From Micromonospora inyonensis (GTDB lineage Bacteria > Actinomycetota > Actinomycetes > Mycobacteriales > Micromonosporaceae), in the NCBI RefSeq assembly GCF_900091415.1, contig NZ_FMHU01000002.1, positions 248,001 through 312,000 on the forward strand: DNA of 64,000 bases. The letters are read 5' to 3'. Within the stretch, counting starts at the first letter, position 1, and each line of letters starts with the position of its first letter. A program made the translations under genes and the position numbers. The notes beneath the pieces are model-generated. The model was not told the origin of the DNA. It worked only from the letters and a program-made list of their open reading frames with translations, and did not search any database. This document shows, piece after piece, positions 1,823-58,889 of this stretch.

Positions 1823-1911
1823 GGATACGTGCTCCCAGTCCGTGTGCGAACCAGGCAAGACGCACGTCGTACGCCCGGTGGCACCGGACGACGACGCGGC
1901 TGGAGACTGAC

Positions 1912-2000
<89 letters not shown>

Positions 2001-2135
2001 ATGTGAAGTTGTCTGCGCAGACGCTAGCACCGGGACGGGCCGGAACCCAGGGGCGCGTCGCGTGGAGAGAGTCGGCCACGTCACTGTCCGGGTTAGGGTG
2101 AGCTGCTCCCCGTACCCGTCGACCCGGAGACCACC

Positions 2136-49182: not shown

Positions 49183-49255
49183 TCCCCTGTAGCTCAATTG
49201 GCAGAGCAGCCGGCTGTTAACCGGCAGGTTATTGGTTCGAGTCCAATCGGGGGAG
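49183..49255 (+). tRNA. tRNA-Asn (GTT)
   Basis: The acceptor stem TCCCCTG pairs with CGGGGGA. The D-arm has AGCTCAATTGGCAGAGC, the anticodon loop CTGTTAA gives GTT, and the T-arm has GGTTCGAGTCC. A TACTCT -10-like hexamer lies about 46 nt upstream. The CCA end is not encoded. Confidence 0.95.
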
Positions 49256-49543
49256 CTTCTCCACCAACGCCCGCCGGCACCGCCCGGCGGGCGGCGCTGT
49301 TTCCGGGCGGCCCGCCGCGCTGGTCATGTCACCGCCGTCGGCCCCGCAGCGGGTCGGTCGTTTCCTCCGAGCCCCCTCGACCGCCCGGCAGGATGGACGG
49401 ACCGGGGAGCGGGTGGAGGGGCAGCCGGGGTCGATGCAGGCTGTTATCCTCGCGTTGCCCATCGTGCCGGAAGATCCGCGCCGTCGCTGCGCATGGTGGT
49501 GGCCGGTGTTGGGGCGACCGGGTTAGTATCCCGGCGCCGGCAT

Positions 49544-49617
49544 GGGGCGGTAGCTCAGCAGGTTAGAGCAGGGGACTCATAATCCCTCGGTCGCGGGTTC
49601 GAGCCCCGCCCGCCCCA
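49544..49617 (+). tRNA. tRNA with CAT anticodon (elongator Met, or Ile2)
   Basis: GGGGCGG pairs with CCGCCCC. The D-arm has AGCTCAGCAGGTTAGAGC, the anticodon loop is CTCATAA and the T-arm has GGGTTCGAGCCCC. It is not the initiator type, because the three G-C pairs below the anticodon loop are absent in the classic form. Met versus lysidine-modified Ile cannot be settled by eye. The 287 nt between the two tRNAs show no gene. Confidence 0.9.
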
Positions 49618-49772
49618 CCGACCGCACCAATGTGCGAACCGGTGGTTGTTCATCGTGACTTCCCCCGTCCGGGTCGGGCGGGGGCATCGTCGTGTCGGTG
49701 GGCCGTCGGGCCGTCGGGTGAGGTGACGCCACCCGCCTGGAGCCGGGGCTCCGGGCGGGTGCGACGCGGGGA

Positions 49773-51595: not shown

Positions 51596-52261
51596 GTGAC
51601 CGACCAGCAGCCCGGCCCCGACCCCACCGTCACGTCCGGCCCCGACCACGCCGCCGTACCGCCGCAGCCGGCCGGCCCTGACCACGTCGGCCCACCGTCG
51701 CAGCCAGCGGGCCCTGACCACGTCGGCTCACCGCCGCAGCCGGCCGGTTCCGACCAGGCTGCCGTGCCGCCGCAGCCCACGCATCCGGAGGTGCCGCCCG
51801 GTTTCGTCCCCGCCGATGGCGCGGCCCCGTTCGGCGAGCCCGCCCCCGGTCCGCTCGCCGCCTACCGGGTGCCGCTCGTCGCGGCGGGCGCGGTGCTGGG
51901 CCTGCTCCTGGCGGTGGTCGCCGGCACCGGCATCTACCAGGCCGTCAAGGAGGACTCGGGCATCACCGCCTGCAAGGCGATGGCGGCCGGCGGCGAGGGC
52001 GAGAAGCCGGTCGACGAAGGGGACGACGAGCTGAGCGAGGCCGAATACAAGAAACTGCGGGAGCAGTTCGCCGACTCCGACCACGAGAAGATCCGGGAGC
52101 ACGGGACGGCTCTGATCGACATCGTGTGGGAGGTGTCGAAGATGGAGGGCGACGAGGCGGCCGGAGCGCTGGCGTACATCGGTCCGATGAGCACGCACAT
52201 GGCCGGCCTGAAGACGGCGTGCGCCAACGAGGGCATCCAGGTGAACCTGAGCGGCGACTGA
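51596..52261 (+). CDS. membrane protein with Pro-rich repeats and acidic outer domain
   Basis: This 221-residue protein starts at GTG 51596 with GAGGAG upstream. The N-terminal 65 residues contain imperfect repeats of PQPAGPDHVG type. One membrane helix (about 92-115, VPLVAAGAVLGLLLAVVAGTGIY) is followed by an extracellular helical domain with acidic character (EKPVDEGDDELSEAEYKKLREQFADSDHEKIREHG) and two Cys (TACKAM, KTACAN) that could pair. No known domain. The 350 nt between this gene and the divergent oxidase show no other gene. Confidence 0.7.
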   Translation: MTDQQPGPDPTVTSGPDHAAVPPQPAGPDHVGPPSQPAGPDHVGSPPQPAGSDQAAVPPQPTHPEVPPGFVPADGAAPFGEPAPGPLAAYRVPLVAAGAVLGLLLAVVAGTGIYQAVKEDSGITACKAMAAGGEGEKPVDEGDDELSEAEYKKLREQFADSDHEKIREHGTALIDIVWEVSKMEGDEAAGALAYIGPMSTHMAGLKTACANEGIQVNLSGD

Positions 52262-52355
52262 TGCGCAGCCGACCGTCGTCCGGTGACCCGGAAACCGGTT
52301 CGCCGCCAACGGACCGTCGTTGGTAATGTCCCGCCCGGCTGAAGGGAAGATCGGC

Positions 52356-53087
52356 ATGGCGAAGCTCAACCAGATCATCGCGGTCACCAAGGGCGTGAAG
52401 GCCCAGACCACCCGGGAGTTCACCGAGGCACACCGCAACGTCCAGAAGGCGCCGCTGCTGTCCGGCATCTCCCGCAGCTACCAGCCGAAGGACGAGGAGG
52501 GCGAGCAGCTTCCGCCGGAGTCGACCCGGGTGCAGGTGTCGGCCACCGACGTGATCGCCGAGGTGTCGACGTCGCTGACCCGCCTCTTCGACCTGGTCCT
52601 CACCCAGGACGTCGCGAACACCCGGGCGAAGGCCGACGTGGTGGTGGACGGCCGGACGATCCTCGCCGACGTGCCGGTCACGTACCTGCTCTTCCTGGAG
52701 AAGCAGCTCGTCGAGCTGTACTCCTTCGTCGACAAGCTGCCCGTGCTGGACCCGGCCGAGAGCTGGACGTTCAACGACGCCGCCGGGGCGTACGCCTCGG
52801 ACCCGGTGAAGACGGTGCGCAGCCGCAAGGTGATGCGCAACCACGTCAAGGCCGAGGCGACCGAGAAGCACCCGGCCCAGGTGGAGGTGTACACCGAGGA
52901 CGTCCCGGTCGGCTACTGGACGACCGTGAAGCTCTCCGGCGCCCTGCCCGCCACCCGGGTCAAGGAGCTGCGGGAGCGGGTGGCGAAGCTCCAGCAGGCG
53001 GTCAAGTTCGCCCGCGAGCAGGCCAACATGACCGAGGTAGAGGACATGAAGGCCGGTGAGTGGGTGTTCGGCTACCTGTTCGGGTAG
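52356..53087 (+). CDS. conserved protein of unknown function next to tandem tRNA-mimic RNAs
   Basis: This 243-residue soluble protein starts at ATG 52356 (MAKLNQIIAVTKGVKAQTTREFTEAHRNVQKAPLLSGISRSYQP) behind a GAAGG site. It resembles an actinobacterial family I recall as DUF7873. The middle part (RVQVSATDVIAEVSTSLTRLFDLVLTQDVANTRAKADVVVDGRTILADVPVTYLLFLEKQLVELYSFVDKLPVLDP) is mixed alpha/beta. The end (TRVKELRERVAKLQQAVKFAREQANMTEVED) is a likely coiled coil. The last residues, AGEWVFGYLFG, are unusually hydrophobic. There is no TROVE (Rsr/Ro60) motif. The stop is 54 nt before the first of two YrlA-like RNAs, so protein and RNAs may be one functional unit. Function is unknown. Confidence 0.8.
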   Translation: MAKLNQIIAVTKGVKAQTTREFTEAHRNVQKAPLLSGISRSYQPKDEEGEQLPPESTRVQVSATDVIAEVSTSLTRLFDLVLTQDVANTRAKADVVVDGRTILADVPVTYLLFLEKQLVELYSFVDKLPVLDPAESWTFNDAAGAYASDPVKTVRSRKVMRNHVKAEATEKHPAQVEVYTEDVPVGYWTTVKLSGALPATRVKELRERVAKLQQAVKFAREQANMTEVEDMKAGEWVFGYLFG

Positions 53088-53098
53088 CCTCGAAGACT

Positions 53099-53136
53099 CC
53101 CTCCGTGGGAGCGCGGAGGGACGCGCGACAAGCGCG
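53099..53136 (+). other. two short hairpins between the unknown protein and the first Y-like RNA
   Basis: CCCTCCG (53099-53105) pairs with CGGAGGG (53114-53120). CGCGC (53122-53126) pairs with GCGCG (53132-53136) around GACAA, followed by AAAA. They could be an mRNA 3' end or a processing signal that frees the first RNA. Confidence 0.5.
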
Positions 53137-53140
53137 AAAA

Positions 53141-53275
53141 GCTGAGACTGAAGGTCAGACTGAGCTGGAGGTGTTCAGTGCAGGTTCGAGTCCTGCCCCC
53201 GGCACCCGGGCCGGGGTAGCCCAACTGGTAGAGGCGACCGTCGAATGAATCTCAGACTCTCGCTCCAGACTCAGC
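53141..53275 (+). ncRNA. YrlA-like Y RNA 1: permuted tRNA mimic on a long terminal stem
   Basis: This is a 135-nt RNA. A T-arm GCAGG-TTCGAGT-CCTGC (53180-53196) comes first. Then follows a closed acceptor-like hairpin, CCCCGGC (53197-53203) with GCCGGGG (53210-53216) and loop ACCCGG. The dinucleotide TA comes next, then a D-arm GCC...TGGTAGA...GGC (53219-53235) with the GG that docks into the T-loop. This is tRNA order cut at the anticodon and joined at the acceptor end. The ends pair as GCTGAG (53141-53146) with CTCAGC (53270-53275), with further pairing CTG/CAG and CTGAG (53160-53164) / CTCAG (53251-53255). That is the organisation described for bacterial Y RNAs, which tether Rsr to partners. 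No anticodon arm is present, so it is not a normal tRNA. Confidence 0.82.
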
Positions 53276-53300
53276 ATTACCGCCGATCGTCGGATGGAGC

Positions 53301-53408
53301 AGCCGTGGAAAGGGTTCGTGGAGTGTAGGTTCGAATCCTACCCGCGCCTCTCTTCGTGGCGCGGTAGCCCAATGGTAGAGGCGACGACTTTCAAACTGAC
53401 CCACGGCT
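53301..53408 (+). ncRNA. YrlA-like Y RNA 2: permuted tRNA mimic, second copy
   Basis: This is a 108-nt RNA, 25 nt after the first. The terminal stem is AGCCGTGG (53301-53308) with CCACGGCT (53401-53408), 8 perfect pairs. The T-arm is GTAGG-TTCGAAT-CCTAC (53325-53341). The closed acceptor-like hairpin is CCGCGCC (53342-53348) with GGCGCGG (53358-53364) and loop TCTCTTCGT. TA follows, then the D-arm GCC...TGGTAGA...GGC (53367-53382). The D-arm segment GGTAGCCCAATGGTAGAGGC matches RNA 1 apart from one base, whereas acceptor and terminal stems differ in sequence but keep pairing. Such compensatory change shows the fold is under selection. A hairpin terminator follows 37 nt later. Confidence 0.84.
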
Positions 53409-53444
53409 TTAAACGCGTCCGGCGTGCGACATGGGCGGAAACCT

Positions 53445-53476
53445 GGAACCCCCGGCTTGGGTAGGCCGGGGGTTCC
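53445..53476 (+). terminator. 12-bp hairpin terminator after the Y-like RNAs
   Basis: GGAACCCCCGGC (53445-53456) pairs perfectly with GCCGGGGGTTCC (53465-53476) around TTGGGTAG. It would end the transcript containing both RNAs. Confidence 0.8.
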
Positions 53477-53508
53477 GCTATTCCCGGAGCCGGCGGCTGT
53501 TCCAGGGT

Positions 53509-53536
53509 CAATGCCACGTAGCCTAATTTGATCATG
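53509..53536 (+). repeat. IS left inverted repeat
   Basis: 28 bp beginning CAATGCCACGTAGCC, exact complement of the right end. The 10-bp target duplication GTTCCAGGGT precedes it. Confidence 0.95.
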
Positions 53537-53612
53537 GGGTTGGACTGGGTCTTTGTGGATGGTCGGCGTGGTGGCGTGACCGGCAGGTCGGGTGCTGGTG
53601 TGCTTGCCGGTC

Positions 53613-54860
53613 ATGTCCGAGACGGTGGCGGTGACGGCGGATCAGGTGTCGTTGGGGGTGCTGGTGTCCGCGGTGCCGCGGGATGCGGTGGACGCGGCGG
53701 TGGCCCGGTTTGGGGTTGGGGCCAAGCGGTCGGATGGGAAGCTTCCGCCGCATGTGGTGGCCTATCTGACGATGGCGTTGTGCCTGTTCGGTGAGGATGA
53801 CTACGAAGAGGTCGCCACGAAGGTCACCGGGGCGTTGACCCGGTTCGGCTGCTGGGACGCCGCTTGGTCGGTGCCGACCGCGTCGGGGATCAGCCAGGCG
53901 CGGCAGCGGCTGGGCGCGCCGGTCATGGAGGAGATCTTCGAGTCGGTGGTGCAGCCGGTGGGCACGACTGATACGCGGGGGGCGTGGCTGCGGCGGTGGC
54001 GAGTCCTTGCTATTGACGGCTTCGATGTGGACCTGCCGGACACGCCGGGTAACGCCGCCGAGTTCGGCTACGCCGGCTCGGGGGGCAACCGGTCGGCGTA
54101 TCCGAAGGCGCGGGTGGTGGCGTTGGCCGAGTGCGGCACGCACGCGTTCCTGGCCGGGGAGGTGTCCGGCTATGGCACCGGGGAGCGGACATTGGCGATG
54201 CGGCTGTACCCGCGGCTGCGCCGCGATGAGCTGCTGACCGCCGACCGGGGGTTCTACTCCTTCGACGCCTGGTCTGCTGCGGCGGGCACCGGGGCGGCGT
54301 TGCTGTGGCGGGCGCCGACCGGGCTGCGGCTGCCGGTCGTGCGGGTGCTGGCCGACGGCACGTATGTGTCCGTGGTGATCAACCCGAAGATCCGCGGTGC
54401 CCGCCGGGACCGCATCGTCGCCGCTGCCCGCGCTGGGCAGGATCTGGCCCCTGAGCTGGCGTATCTGGTACGAGTGGTCGAGTACGACGTGCCCGACCGC
54501 GACGGCGACGGCACCGGCGAGCTGATCGTGCTGCTGACCACCGTCCTCGACCCGGCCGAGGCCCACGCGGACGAGCTGGCCGAGGCCTACCACCTGCGCT
54601 GGGAAGAAGAGACCAGCAACGACCAGCTCAAGACGCACCTACGCGGCCCGGGCCGTCTGCTGCGCTCAAGGCTGCCGGAGCTGGCCTACCAGGAAATCTG
54701 GGCCTGGCTGATCGTCCACCACGCCCTCGCCGCGTTGATCACCCGCGCGGCCGAAGCCGCCGACCTCGACCCCGACCGGATCAGCTTCACCCGCGCGCTG
54801 CGAATCGCCCGCCGTACCGCCACCGGGACGGCGGGCATTCCCCCCTGGAGACTGGACTGA
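53613..54860 (+). CDS. IS4-family transposase, C-terminus frameshifted
   Basis: This 415-residue transposase starts at ATG 53613 (MSETVAVTADQ). It begins with the IS4 N-terminal domain (DGKLPPHVVAYLTMALCLFGEDDYEEVATKV), followed by the DDE core: Asp in LAIDGFDVDLPD, Asp in LTADRGFYSF, and Glu in YHLRWEEETSNDQLK. A stop at 54858 comes just after GIPPWRLD. One base earlier a different frame gives DWTDHLPHALAELGRKPLPPRRHRSCPRAVKRARHNSYRVKKH, which is the normal basic tail of this family. A +1 shift in the C-run near 54841-54847 thus removes the tail. Activity is uncertain. Confidence 0.9.
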   Translation: MSETVAVTADQVSLGVLVSAVPRDAVDAAVARFGVGAKRSDGKLPPHVVAYLTMALCLFGEDDYEEVATKVTGALTRFGCWDAAWSVPTASGISQARQRLGAPVMEEIFESVVQPVGTTDTRGAWLRRWRVLAIDGFDVDLPDTPGNAAEFGYAGSGGNRSAYPKARVVALAECGTHAFLAGEVSGYGTGERTLAMRLYPRLRRDELLTADRGFYSFDAWSAAAGTGAALLWRAPTGLRLPVVRVLADGTYVSVVINPKIRGARRDRIVAAARAGQDLAPELAYLVRVVEYDVPDRDGDGTGELIVLLTTVLDPAEAHADELAEAYHLRWEEETSNDQLKTHLRGPGRLLRSRLPELAYQEIWAWLIVHHALAALITRAAEAADLDPDRISFTRALRIARRTATGTAGIPPWRLD

Positions 54861-56749: not shown

Positions 56750-58685
56750 GAGCAGTGGCACTCTCCGAAGGAGGTTCGGCGTGTTGTCGAAGGGGTAGTG
56801 CTCGGTCCAGTGCGTAAGGACCGTCTCCACCTCGGCGTGCGTCGCGGGTAACTGCGGGGTGCGGAGCCCGAGGGCGTGCCCAAGGATCCTCGTTCCATCC
56901 GGGGGTTACAGGCTGGAGAAGGCCGGACGGGTGAATGATGTGAACCCTCGATGACGCCTCGTCACTACCACTCTCGCTCGATGGGACGCACCAGCGGGAG
57001 ACAGGGGCCGGCCGTTGCAAGGCGGCGGGTGCCGCCCGGAGGGACTTTGCCGGGCGGGAGCGCACCACCGTCCCCGGGGTTCAGGGGGCACCCACCCCGG
57101 TCGTATCTGTTGCGTGCGGAACGTGACAACCCCGATGGGATCCAGGCGGAGAACTGCTCTGGCTGGTAGGCCACCTGTGAGGGTGGGTGAAGTCCCAGCG
57201 GGCGCAGGACGACCCGAGAAGCGAATGCCGGTGGCCGAAAGGCGACGGGAAACCGGGAACAGCCGGGCTGGCTCCTTCGCCAGTGGTTGCCGGATAACCG
57301 GCCGGATAGGGGCTGATGCCCTGGCCTGAAAGGGCGCTGACGCGGGTCGGGTGAACCTGTGACGAATCGTGCTGGTCACAGCACCGGAGCCGAAGGGCAA
57401 GTTGGACACGATGACGGCGATGGCTTTCGCGGTGGCGATGGCGGGCCTCGGAGTGAACGGACCGGAGGGCGAGGTCCCCGACTGGGACGCCATCGACTGG
57501 CGGGCCTGCGAGGACAACGTACGGCGGCTGCGGCAGCGGATCTTCACGGCCACGCGGGCGGGGGACCTGAAACAGGTCCGGAATTTGCAGAAGTTGATGC
57601 TGCGGTCCCGCAGCAACGCCTTGGTGGCGGTGCGGCGGGTCACGCAGCTCAACGCTGGCCGTAAGACGGCCGGGGTGGACGGGTTGATCGTGGTGAACGG
57701 GCAGCAGAAAGCCGAGTTGGCTGACTGGGTTCAGCACCGCGCGCGGCCGTGGTCACCGCGGCCTGTCAAGCGGGTGTATGTGCCCAAGAGCAACGGGCGT
57801 CGTCGTGGTCTCGGGATTCCGGTGATCGCTGACAGGGCGTTGCAGGCCCTGACGGTCAACGCGTTGGAGCCCGAGTGGGAGGCCCGGTTCGAACCGAAGT
57901 CCTACGGGTTCAGGCCGGGTCGTGGCTGTCACGACGCGATCGTGGCTATCCACGCGACGGCGAGCCGCGCGGACGCGAAGCGCTTGTGGGTGCTCGACGC
58001 TGATCTCGCGGCGGCGTTCGACCGGCTCGACCACGAGCACATCAGCGAGTCGCTGGGCATGTTCCCCGGACGGGGAATGGTGCGGCAGTGGCTCACGGCT
58101 GGTGTGGTCGAGCAAGGCCGGTTCACCCCAACCGACCAGGGTGCTCCGCAGGGTGGGGTGATCAGCCCGTTGCTCATGAACGTTGCTCTGCATGGCATGG
58201 AGGCCGCCGCCGGGGTCCGCTACCACGTCACCGGCACCCGTGCCGGACAGACGGTGGATGGCTGCCCGGTGGTGGTCCGCTACGCCGACGATCTTCTCGC
58301 GCTGTGCCACTCCCGTGAGCAGGCCGAGCAGGTCAAGGCGCGGCTGGGGGCGTGGTTGACGCCCAGGGGTCTGGTCTTCAACGAGGACAAGACCCGCATC
58401 CTGCACCTGAGTGAAGGTGTGGATTTCCTGGGCTTCAATATTCGCCGCTACTCCAACGGCAAGCTGCTGACCAAGCCGAGCAACGATGCGTCGCGGCGGA
58501 TCCGGAAACGGCTGTCCACCGAGGTGAGGGCCCTTCGAGGGTCGAACGCCGACGCGGTGATCGGAAGGCTCAACCCGATCATCAACGGGTGGGCCGCCTA
58601 CTACCGGATCGGGGTGTCCAAACGCGCCTTCGGCGCGCTGGACGCCCACCTGTGGAAACTGACCTACAAGTGGGCCAGGTTCACA
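56729..58685 (+). mobile_element. group II intron, 3' end deleted
   Basis: The 5' boundary GTGCGACACGAG directly follows a host codon. About 640 nt of structured GC-rich RNA domain I-IV sequence follow, including GCGAATGCCGGTGGCCGAAAGG, then the maturase gene. The domain V/VI sequence and 3' splice site expected after the maturase are absent. Instead coding sequence of the host regulator begins around 58675-58690. The intron can therefore no longer splice or move by itself. Confidence 0.8.
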
Positions 58686-58889
58686 ATGATCGACATGACC
58701 CGGGTCCGCCTCGACGCCGGCGACCACCACGCCGCCGGCCGCACCCTGGTCACCGCCGACCACATCGCCCCCGCCAGAGTGCGCCTCCGACCCGCCGCCC
58801 ACGCCGCGCTGGCCGCCGTCCTCCGCGCCGGACCCACCCCGGCCGACGTCACCCGCCTCGCCACCACCATCGGCCTGACCCGAACCTGA
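57411..58889 (+). CDS. group II intron reverse transcriptase/maturase fused to host regulator C-terminus
   Basis: This 492-residue chimera starts at ATG 57411 (MTAMAFAVAMAGLGVNG); an in-frame GTG at 57369 is possible. The RT domain is intact: TAGVDG, KRVYVPKSNGRRRGLGIPVIADRALQALTVNALEPEWEARFEPKSYGFRPGRGCHDA, QGAPQGGVISPLLMN, the catalytic VVRYADDLL, and LVFNEDKT. The thumb/X domain starts (NGWAAYYRIGVSKRAFGALDAHLWKLTYKWA) and then breaks off. The last 65 residues (RVRLDAGDHHAAGRTLVTADHIAPARVRLRPAAHAALAAVLR...LATTIGLTRT) belong to the TPR tail of the XRE regulator whose head is at 56588-56728. The maturase tail and endonuclease domain are lost. Confidence 0.87.
   Translation: MTAMAFAVAMAGLGVNGPEGEVPDWDAIDWRACEDNVRRLRQRIFTATRAGDLKQVRNLQKLMLRSRSNALVAVRRVTQLNAGRKTAGVDGLIVVNGQQKAELADWVQHRARPWSPRPVKRVYVPKSNGRRRGLGIPVIADRALQALTVNALEPEWEARFEPKSYGFRPGRGCHDAIVAIHATASRADAKRLWVLDADLAAAFDRLDHEHISESLGMFPGRGMVRQWLTAGVVEQGRFTPTDQGAPQGGVISPLLMNVALHGMEAAAGVRYHVTGTRAGQTVDGCPVVVRYADDLLALCHSREQAEQVKARLGAWLTPRGLVFNEDKTRILHLSEGVDFLGFNIRRYSNGKLLTKPSNDASRRIRKRLSTEVRALRGSNADAVIGRLNPIINGWAAYYRIGVSKRAFGALDAHLWKLTYKWARFTMIDMTRVRLDAGDHHAAGRTLVTADHIAPARVRLRPAAHAALAAVLRAGPTPADVTRLATTIGLTRT

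Follow-up and report, generated by a model that had tools for sequence, protein, structure and literature searches.

The locus

The window (the whole stretch of 64,000 nucleotides of Micromonospora inyonensis DNA that was analysed) carries on its plus strand a gene for a protein of the DUF7873 family and, adjoining it downstream, a locus with two permuted tRNA mimics, each running T-arm, acceptor hairpin, D-arm, within 53141-53438. The protein match to Pfam PF25283 scores 376.6 bits against a cut-off of 27. The database holds at least 7163 relatives, the closest named ones among the matches listed being Micromonospora proteins with 97% and 93% identity. DUF7873 proteins are not basic (pI 5.5-7.8 in 10 members) and a confident structure model yielded no clear fold match; RNA binding is therefore not supported by the protein itself. 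An IS4-family transposase gene (53616-54857) lies soon 3' of the RNA, with a group II intron reverse transcriptase (57369-58889) further downstream; elsewhere in the window, a TPP riboswitch (1900-2005, minus strand) scores above its Rfam gathering score.

The features of the locus, all on the plus strand, are these (the modules are numbered in 5' to 3' order and the core helices are named P1 to P4):

52356..53087, plus: DUF7873 gene, 243 amino acids (MAKLNQII...), Pfam PF25283 at E 7.7e-113 over residues 1-242
53099..53136, plus: two short G+C-rich hairpins, CCCTCCG/CGGAGGG and CGCGC/GCGCG, read by eye
53141..53146, plus: 5' strand of P1, GCTGAG, pairing with 53270-53275 (RNAalifold consensus and pairing comparison)
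53180..53196, plus: T-arm of module 1 (structure scan)
53197..53216, plus: acceptor-like 7-bp stem of module 1, loop ACCCGG (structure scan)
53197-53203/53210-53216, plus: strands of that stem, CCCCGGC/GCCGGGG (structure scan)
53219..53235, plus: D-arm of module 1 (structure scan and 36-locus pairing comparison)
53270..53275, plus: 3' strand of P1, CTCAGC (RNAalifold consensus and pairing comparison)
53280..53284, plus: 5' strand of P2, pairing with 53434-53438 (pairing comparison)
53288..53293, plus: 5' strand of P3, pairing with 53419-53424 (two-sided changes at all six pairs)
53302..53308, plus: 5' strand of P4, GCCGTGG, pairing with 53401-53407 and enclosing module 2 (two-sided changes)
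53325..53341, plus: T-arm of module 2 (structure scan; two-sided changes at 4 of 5 pairs)
53342..53364, plus: acceptor-like 7-bp stem of module 2, loop TCTCTTCGT (two-sided changes at 6 of 7 pairs)
53342-53348/53358-53364, plus: strands of that stem, CCGCGCC/GGCGCGG (structure scan)
53367..53382, plus: D-arm of module 2 (structure scan, 36-locus pairing and two-sided changes)
53401..53438, plus: 3' strands of P4, P3 and P2 around a conserved TTAAACG motif (alignment, RNAalifold, pairing and covariation)
53445..53476, plus: 12-bp G+C-rich hairpin after the core, with no T run, read from the sequence

The permuted tRNA mimicry had been claimed in an earlier, sequence-only reading of this DNA, and both modules are confirmed by sequence and by a structure scan for a T-arm, a 7-bp acceptor hairpin and a D-arm. 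(The structure scan replaced an exact-motif scan that missed most copies.) In the 64-kb window it finds the permuted arrangement at the two module sites only. As a control, 1.73 Mb of mononucleotide-shuffled sequence gave no hit on either strand, although dinucleotide shuffling would have been the stricter test. Neither ARAGORN nor Rfam (at its gathering score) calls anything at the RNA locus; their only tRNA calls in the window are two ordinary tRNAs, at 49183-49256 and 49544-49619.

The hairpin pair at 53099..53136 is probably the 5' end of the RNA, and similar hairpins are seen by eye 5' of the core in many actinobacterial relatives. The hairpin at 53445..53476, for which a canonical terminator call was negative, is probably its 3' end; a hairpin also follows the core in many relatives (by eye). 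The end of the feature had been placed at 53408; P2 and P3 pair 53280-53293 with 53419-53438, past that position, and counting the following hairpin the RNA unit extends to ~53476.

Probably one RNA with a core of four helices

Folding of single sequences says little here. The z-scores are unremarkable (-1.82 and -1.09) and would not by themselves have led to this RNA, and the minimum-energy fold of 53141-53438, at -126.9 kcal/mol, differs from the fold indicated by covariation, to which a constrained calculation assigns -121.6 kcal/mol. Such folding was accordingly rejected as proof and, the folding energy being unremarkable, the case has been built on comparison between species.

The comparison uses 36 diverse loci, chosen by us and limited to those giving a clean module pair. 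In their alignment the linkers before, between and after the modules are conserved, with the core motifs AAGCTGA..CTGA, CTCAGACTCTCGCTCCAG, ATCGA and TTAAACG, and RNAalifold recovers P1, both modules, P3 and P4. Each core helix was compared with a control in which 3' strands were swapped between loci 500 times, the helices having been named after the alignment was viewed. P1 is paired in 83.1% of 213 cells (mean of swaps 76.4%, maximum 81.7%), P2 in 88.5% of 174 (83.6% and 87.4%), P3 in 93.5% of 215 (68.8% and 76.7%) and P4 in 85.7% of 251 (51.3% and 59.8%). In no case was the observed pairing reached by any of the swaps, so that sequence comparison supports P1 and P2 modestly and P3 and P4 strongly; one locus, L077, breaks P1 (by eye). 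The enclosing stems of the earlier reading are thus present, at 53141-53146/53270-53275 and 53302-53308/53401-53407.

The T-, acceptor and D-stems are paired in 98-100% of cells, in part by construction, because the scan demands pairing. The acceptor stems nevertheless use 21 different 5' strands in module 1 and 27 in module 2, and acceptor strands swapped across loci pair at only 73% and 67%, respectively. A MAFFT alignment of the module-2 domain from 31 loci has two-sided changes at 28 of 33 predicted pairs. The covariation that the sequence-only reading drew from two copies is thereby borne out by many compensatory changes in 31-36 relatives, and at this level of comparison the fold may be taken as demonstrated. 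At the position of an anticodon stem, a helix of at least 4 bp joins the arm to the core in 29 of 36 loci for module 1 and 35 of 36 for module 2, the longest such stems averaging 5.0 and 5.6 bp, as against 4.1 in swaps. No anticodon loop is seen by eye in the aligned loci; the flanks of the modules run instead into P1 and P4.

The inter-module linker pairs with the 3' end through P2 and P3 and with the 5' part through P1, and the long-range helices P2-P4 together surround module 2. The modules would therefore be arms of one RNA, and what lies at the locus looks, from its conserved pairings, like a single molecule of ~300-380 nt rather than two separate Y RNAs. The earlier proposal of two tandem RNAs with the YrlA/YrlB fold is not supported by this comparison, since P2-P4 and the linkers are conserved from Micromonospora to phages.

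Linkage to DUF7873

DUF7873 is found in 93 of 199 Streptomyces genomes. An exact pattern for the conserved RNA linker occurs in 54 of the 199, once in each. Every copy is on the strand of DUF7873 and 109-272 nt downstream of that gene, and the 106 genomes that lack DUF7873 have no copy (Fisher p 1.2e-23). For the 39 DUF7873 genomes without the exact pattern, the structure scan finds at least one permuted module downstream in 38, the sole exception (G570) having a DUF7873 piece of only 85 residues. That locus (L170), with its broken DUF7873 and, by eye, apparent remnants of the RNA linkers, resembles a decaying copy of the system.

A wider sample comprises 107 relative loci: 80 in named genomes (the best 80 of at least 540 confirmed matches) and 27 in viral contigs. 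Within 800 nt downstream of DUF7873 on the same strand there are two modules at 67 of these loci (49 genome, 18 viral) and one at 35, the distance from the end of the DUF7873 match to the start of the first T-arm being 41-442 nt (median 143). The loci with no module in that interval are L016, L102, L103, L119 and L120, of which the last two are partial matches.

The covariance-model search that had been suggested as a check was run with the module-2 domain on 396 genomes of the phylum. Seven of the 396 genomes carry DUF7873: all six that score at least 97 bits, and G171, whose full-length match scores 49.9 bits. Two genomes without DUF7873 come out slightly above G171, at 50.9 and 50.8 bits, through their tRNA-like part only. 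These two matches turned out to be Y RNAs and were rejected as RNAs of the DUF7873 type. RNA model R1 has matches at E <= 0.01 in 179 of the 396 genomes; its weak matches were not counted, most of those among the matches listed covering the tRNA-like part only or scoring below 44 bits. The co-occurrence of DUF7873 and the RNA is near-complete, and their linkage, like the fold, can be regarded as established by sequence comparison. Apart from DUF7873, a comparison of neighbouring genes finds none in more than 6 of 14 groups.

Other lineages, phages and plasmids

The pair, widespread among soil bacteria and phages, is also present in Micromonospora, Nocardia and Chloroflexota, as well as in phages infecting Arthrobacter, Gordonia, Rhodococcus, Rhizobium, Klebsiella, Vibrio and a cyanobacterium. 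DUF7873 matches were found in 4 plasmid records and in 73 phage records, the latter distributed by host as Vibrio 29, Gordonia 12, Rhizobium 12, Klebsiella 7, Serratia 6, Arthrobacter 3, Pseudanabaena 2, Rhodococcus 1 and Microcoleus 1. The structure scan finds two modules at phage loci L121, L122, L123, L125 and L127, one at L124 (with a second, weaker, found by the model), and one each in Rhizobium phages L126, L129 and L131 and in Vibrio phage L130. Several of the phages and viral contigs bearing the pair are rich in tRNA genes, and DUF7873 often lies inside their tRNA arrays.

In all 11 phage records examined DUF7873 is annotated as hypothetical, and the RNA is unannotated save for one apparent tRNA miscall. 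In Klebsiella phage vB_KpM_FBKp24 (MW394391) a tRNA-Sup-TTA annotated at L127:5013-5097, which ARAGORN calls likewise, overlaps the second module; it looks like a miscall of a permuted module.

Among 14 control genomes, Deinobacterium chartae is the only one with a DUF7873 match and also the only one with a match to TROVE, the domain of Ro60/Rsr proteins.

Modularity of the arms

The two arms are not equally constant. Of 28 Streptomyces loci with a single module by scan, none has the T-arm...D-arm motif of module 1; the same motif is present in 48 of 49 two-module genome loci and in 6 of 18 two-module viral loci. In the four of the 28 that were read (L015, L027, L056 and L076) a short hairpin or remnant bridges the core flanks. 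Seven further one-module loci (L065, L091, L097, L098, L100, L112 and L113) were left out of the count of losses, several being two-armed by eye or by model; in L100, module 2 looks degenerate (by eye). The missing body of module 1 implies that the pair of modules is not an obligate tandem duplication and, since Rhizobium phages likewise show one module, that module 2 is the more constant arm. The four loci that were read and the 24 other Streptomyces loci amount to a natural arm-deletion series in which module 2 is kept. Because arms are lost around a fixed core, natural strains with one arm and with two offer a way to test what an arm contributes.

How the pair might work

The DUF7873-RNA pair is probably a new ribonucleoprotein machine acting together with enzymes that handle tRNA. 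The arrangement that we favour, and that we regard as likely with considerable reserve, is a two-part ribonucleoprotein composed of DUF7873 and one structured RNA, with the core bound to the protein and an arm docking a tRNA enzyme. DUF7873 would bind and stabilise the core. The arms would have the shape of permuted tRNAs whose anticodon-stem position leads into the core, and a tRNA-like arm (nearly always module 2, with module 1 optional) would dock a tRNA-binding enzyme, for example a nuclease or a modification enzyme. Core binding and arm docking we infer by analogy, the docking being modelled on the way in which Y RNA bridges Rsr and its partners.

A decoy function is a different proposal, which we consider unlikely but worth keeping in mind. 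The RNA would bait enzymes that attack tRNA, such as anticodon nucleases and toxins, and DUF7873 would stabilise or present it; tRNAs would be protected because the RNA offers a tRNA elbow and acceptor without an anticodon loop. The tRNA-rich phages and viral contigs, with the gene so often within tRNA arrays, fit this idea about as well as they fit enzyme docking, the modules do lack an anticodon loop, and the same role has been suggested for YrlA (PMC7790460). The 93 Streptomyces genomes with DUF7873 fit it less readily, no recurring neighbour pointing to defence was found (in a comparison in which neighbours were unannotated), and the strongly conserved core exceeds the needs of a decoy.

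The acceptor loops are the source of another proposal: RNase P and 3' processing enzymes might open them, leaving two or three chains whose ends are tRNA-like, perhaps CCA-tailed and even charged, in the manner of two-piece tmRNA. The loops were surveyed as 52 distinct sequences for module 1 and 54 for module 2, drawn from 67 loci. The nucleotide that follows the acceptor strand is discriminator-like and the second base of the loop is C in 49 of 52 and 53 of 54, respectively; N-CCA follows the acceptor strand in 18 of 52 and 9 of 54, and also in all six proteobacterial-phage modules read by eye, a pattern that suggests tRNA-like 3' ends. Most ordinary tRNA genes encode CCA in L126 (17 of 17), L108 (8 of 9), L109 (15 of 16) and L113 (19 of 22), and loop length is free, ranging from 4 to 78 nt. 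On the other hand, most actinobacterial loops are short and without CCA, both cyanophage modules lack N-CCA, and module 2 loops mostly start with TCT, which CCA does not explain. By a crude check of gene ends, the tRNA genes of L121 (0 of 11) and L123 (0 of 10) are without CCA though module 1 has it, as are the single tRNAs of L129 and of L131 though their module has it. No charging identity is seen either, and the 1:72 pair varies. Processing of this kind is accordingly given a small chance only.

A bolder synthesis, which we hold to be speculative and put forward with little confidence, would place the pair next to Rsr/Y RNA and tmRNA as a third ribonucleoprotein type that mimics tRNA, present in bacterial chromosomes and also in phages whose hosts span at least three phyla. 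Its arms would be cut at the acceptor loops in the manner of permuted pre-tRNAs, and the resulting RNA of several chains, with tRNA-like ends bearing CCA, would capture or control enzymes of tRNA; phages would carry it within their tRNA arrays to manage damage to host tRNA.

TROVE proteins and their Y RNAs

The sequence-only reading noted that no Rsr/Ro60 gene lies in the window and guessed at a different partner. The first statement is true; in the 6.9-Mb source genome there is a TROVE match ~0.5 Mb away, beside which no Y RNA of the Streptomyces type was found. (RtcB matches also occur in that genome in two pieces, at C2:2356532-2357031, covering profile positions 1-61 and 347-425, which could be a broken or divergent ligase gene.) The RNA might, then, belong as a Y RNA to the TROVE (Rsr-like) protein of the same genome while being encoded at a distance from it, and the tRNA-like part that it has in common with Y RNAs is in keeping with this. 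We think it improbable, for the guess of another partner is upheld on several counts.

TROVE occurs in 95 of the 199 Streptomyces genomes, and its distribution shows no association with that of DUF7873 (both in 49, DUF7873 only in 44, TROVE only in 46, neither in 60; p 0.20), with the qualification that the Streptomyces TROVE matches are partial (about profile positions 278-354 of 442) and some absences may be misses. Furthermore, four genomes with both systems (G107, G128, G161 and G182) keep separate Y RNAs adjoining TROVE.

Those Y RNAs have a recognisable sequence. In six Streptomyces regions to which weak R1 matches pointed (L178, L179, L180, L181, L182 and L183), Y RNAs lie at a distance of 0.9-1.2 kb from the TROVE match, and four of the regions hold two copies. 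The signature GTGCGnAGGCAnnGGnTACTTC, with variants, is common to these TROVE-linked RNAs and to the viral contigs L104, L105 and L116. The lower stem of Y RNA is the Rsr binding site (PMC4726728), and the TACTTC-type signature may be that site. The TACTTC motif is absent from 52000-54500 of the window, and none of 105 DUF7873 loci has GGnTACTTC in the first 450 nt downstream. A Y RNA model was made from 13 signature RNAs, of which 9 flank TROVE genes in Streptomyces and 4 come from viral contigs. With it the window modules score 34.8 and 27.6 bits, no better than a site (32.1 bits) that overlaps a tRNA-Met gene in its 5' portion. It matches 12 signature copies at 38.3-130.9 bits, the four outside the training set scoring 38.3, 54.2, 61.4 and 88.8. 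(RNA model R2, whose consensus structure lacks the acceptor stem because of misalignment, works mainly by sequence.) Overlap with the Rfam YrlA model (RF02553), another check that had been proposed, gives a divided answer: at a relaxed threshold it matches the modules, at 31.2 and 26.3 bits, short of the gathering score of 69, which the TROVE-linked Streptomyces Y RNAs (30.5-56.2 bits) do not reach either. The Rfam cut-off thus misses the Y RNAs of all six regions. Judged by signature, model and TROVE co-occurrence, the window RNA does not pass as a Ro60/Rsr Y RNA.

The three viral contigs carry their TACTTC-signature Y RNAs, several in tandem, at L104:1200-1798, L105:10298-10583 and L116:13631-14071, together with DUF7873 and its RNA; some of these Y RNAs have a complete anticodon-like arm. 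Reading the extra permuted modules of these contigs as permuted tRNA genes with anticodon arms was tried and dropped, since most share the Y RNA signature; a module at L105:10141 reaches only 29.2 bits with the Y RNA model and one at L104:1852 is unmatched.

Probably a gene of its own

The first hairpin begins ~12 nt past the DUF7873 stop codon and no sigma-70-like promoter was found between them, as might be expected of a cis-acting 3' untranslated region or attenuator that regulates the DUF7873 mRNA. Four records make this a very improbable account. In viral contigs L102 and L103 the RNA lies ~8.4 kb downstream of DUF7873 on the same strand and scores 68.6 bits in each, the equal spacing and scores suggesting near-identical viruses and probably the same one. 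In Microcoleus phage L128 another gene intervenes, and the best model match (46.9 bits) is ~2 kb downstream. In L016, from a Chloroflexi MAG, the RNA (81.6 bits) is elsewhere in the genome, with no DUF7873 in the surrounding 3.1 kb examined. An RNA that stands 2-8 kb from DUF7873, or elsewhere altogether, is not merely a 3' untranslated region, and its placement argues that it is a gene in its own right. As for decay of ordinary tRNA genes, which had been offered as a refutation, the near-canonical T- and D-arm sequences are compatible with it, but bacteria and phages alike conserve the permuted order, the pairing of the stems and the linkers, which leaves it a negligible chance.

Comparison with known systems

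No description of the DUF7873-RNA pair was found in Rfam, PHROGs or the accessible portions of the open-licence literature (PMC3765725 included), and nothing under the name DUF7873 in the open-licence literature. The pair would thus add to the inventory a common, previously unannotated RNA-protein combination, DUF7873 being present in 93 of the 199 Streptomyces genomes and in phages and having over 7000 relatives among proteins, and it suggests that permuted tRNA mimicry extends beyond Ro60.

In two-piece tmRNA the gene order of the tRNA-like domain is swapped and the acceptor ends are joined by a loop. The DUF7873-linked RNA has the same swapped order (the two were compared through Rfam only) and differs in having intact D-arms and two tRNA-like domains. 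Rfam gives no tmRNA match at gathering score anywhere in the window, and none within 52900-53600 even at E up to 10; no tag-coding element was noticed in the window RNA. The permuted tRNA genes of algae and archaea place the 3' half first and then the 5' half, joined at the acceptor. The window modules differ from these in that the anticodon-stem position runs into the conserved core; there being no anticodon loop, no functional tRNA is expected from them.

GOLLD is a large RNA of mycobacterial tRNA arrays, according to the title of a paper cited in PMC9569102. It has no Rfam match in the window at gathering score. It is not known to be made of permuted tRNA modules.

The closest comparison is with YrlA and Rsr. 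Y RNA is described as tethering Rsr to PNPase and gating access (PMC4726728, PMC7790460), and the YrlA tRNA-like domain as not being a substrate for the anticodon nuclease (PMC7790460); a survey of jumbo phages mentions TROVE proteins that have a tRNA-like partner (PMC7824862). The two systems have in common a permuted module that is closed at the acceptor and open at the anticodon position, a dedicated protein gene that is usually adjacent, and the possibility of tandem modules. They differ in that DUF7873 takes the place of TROVE and the P1-P4 core that of the Rsr-binding stem; the window RNA holds both modules in one molecule and lacks the Y RNA signature, and TROVE-linked Y RNAs exist separately in some DUF7873 genomes. 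We place the DUF7873-linked RNA among the scaffold RNAs that mimic tRNA; both its partner and its core are new.
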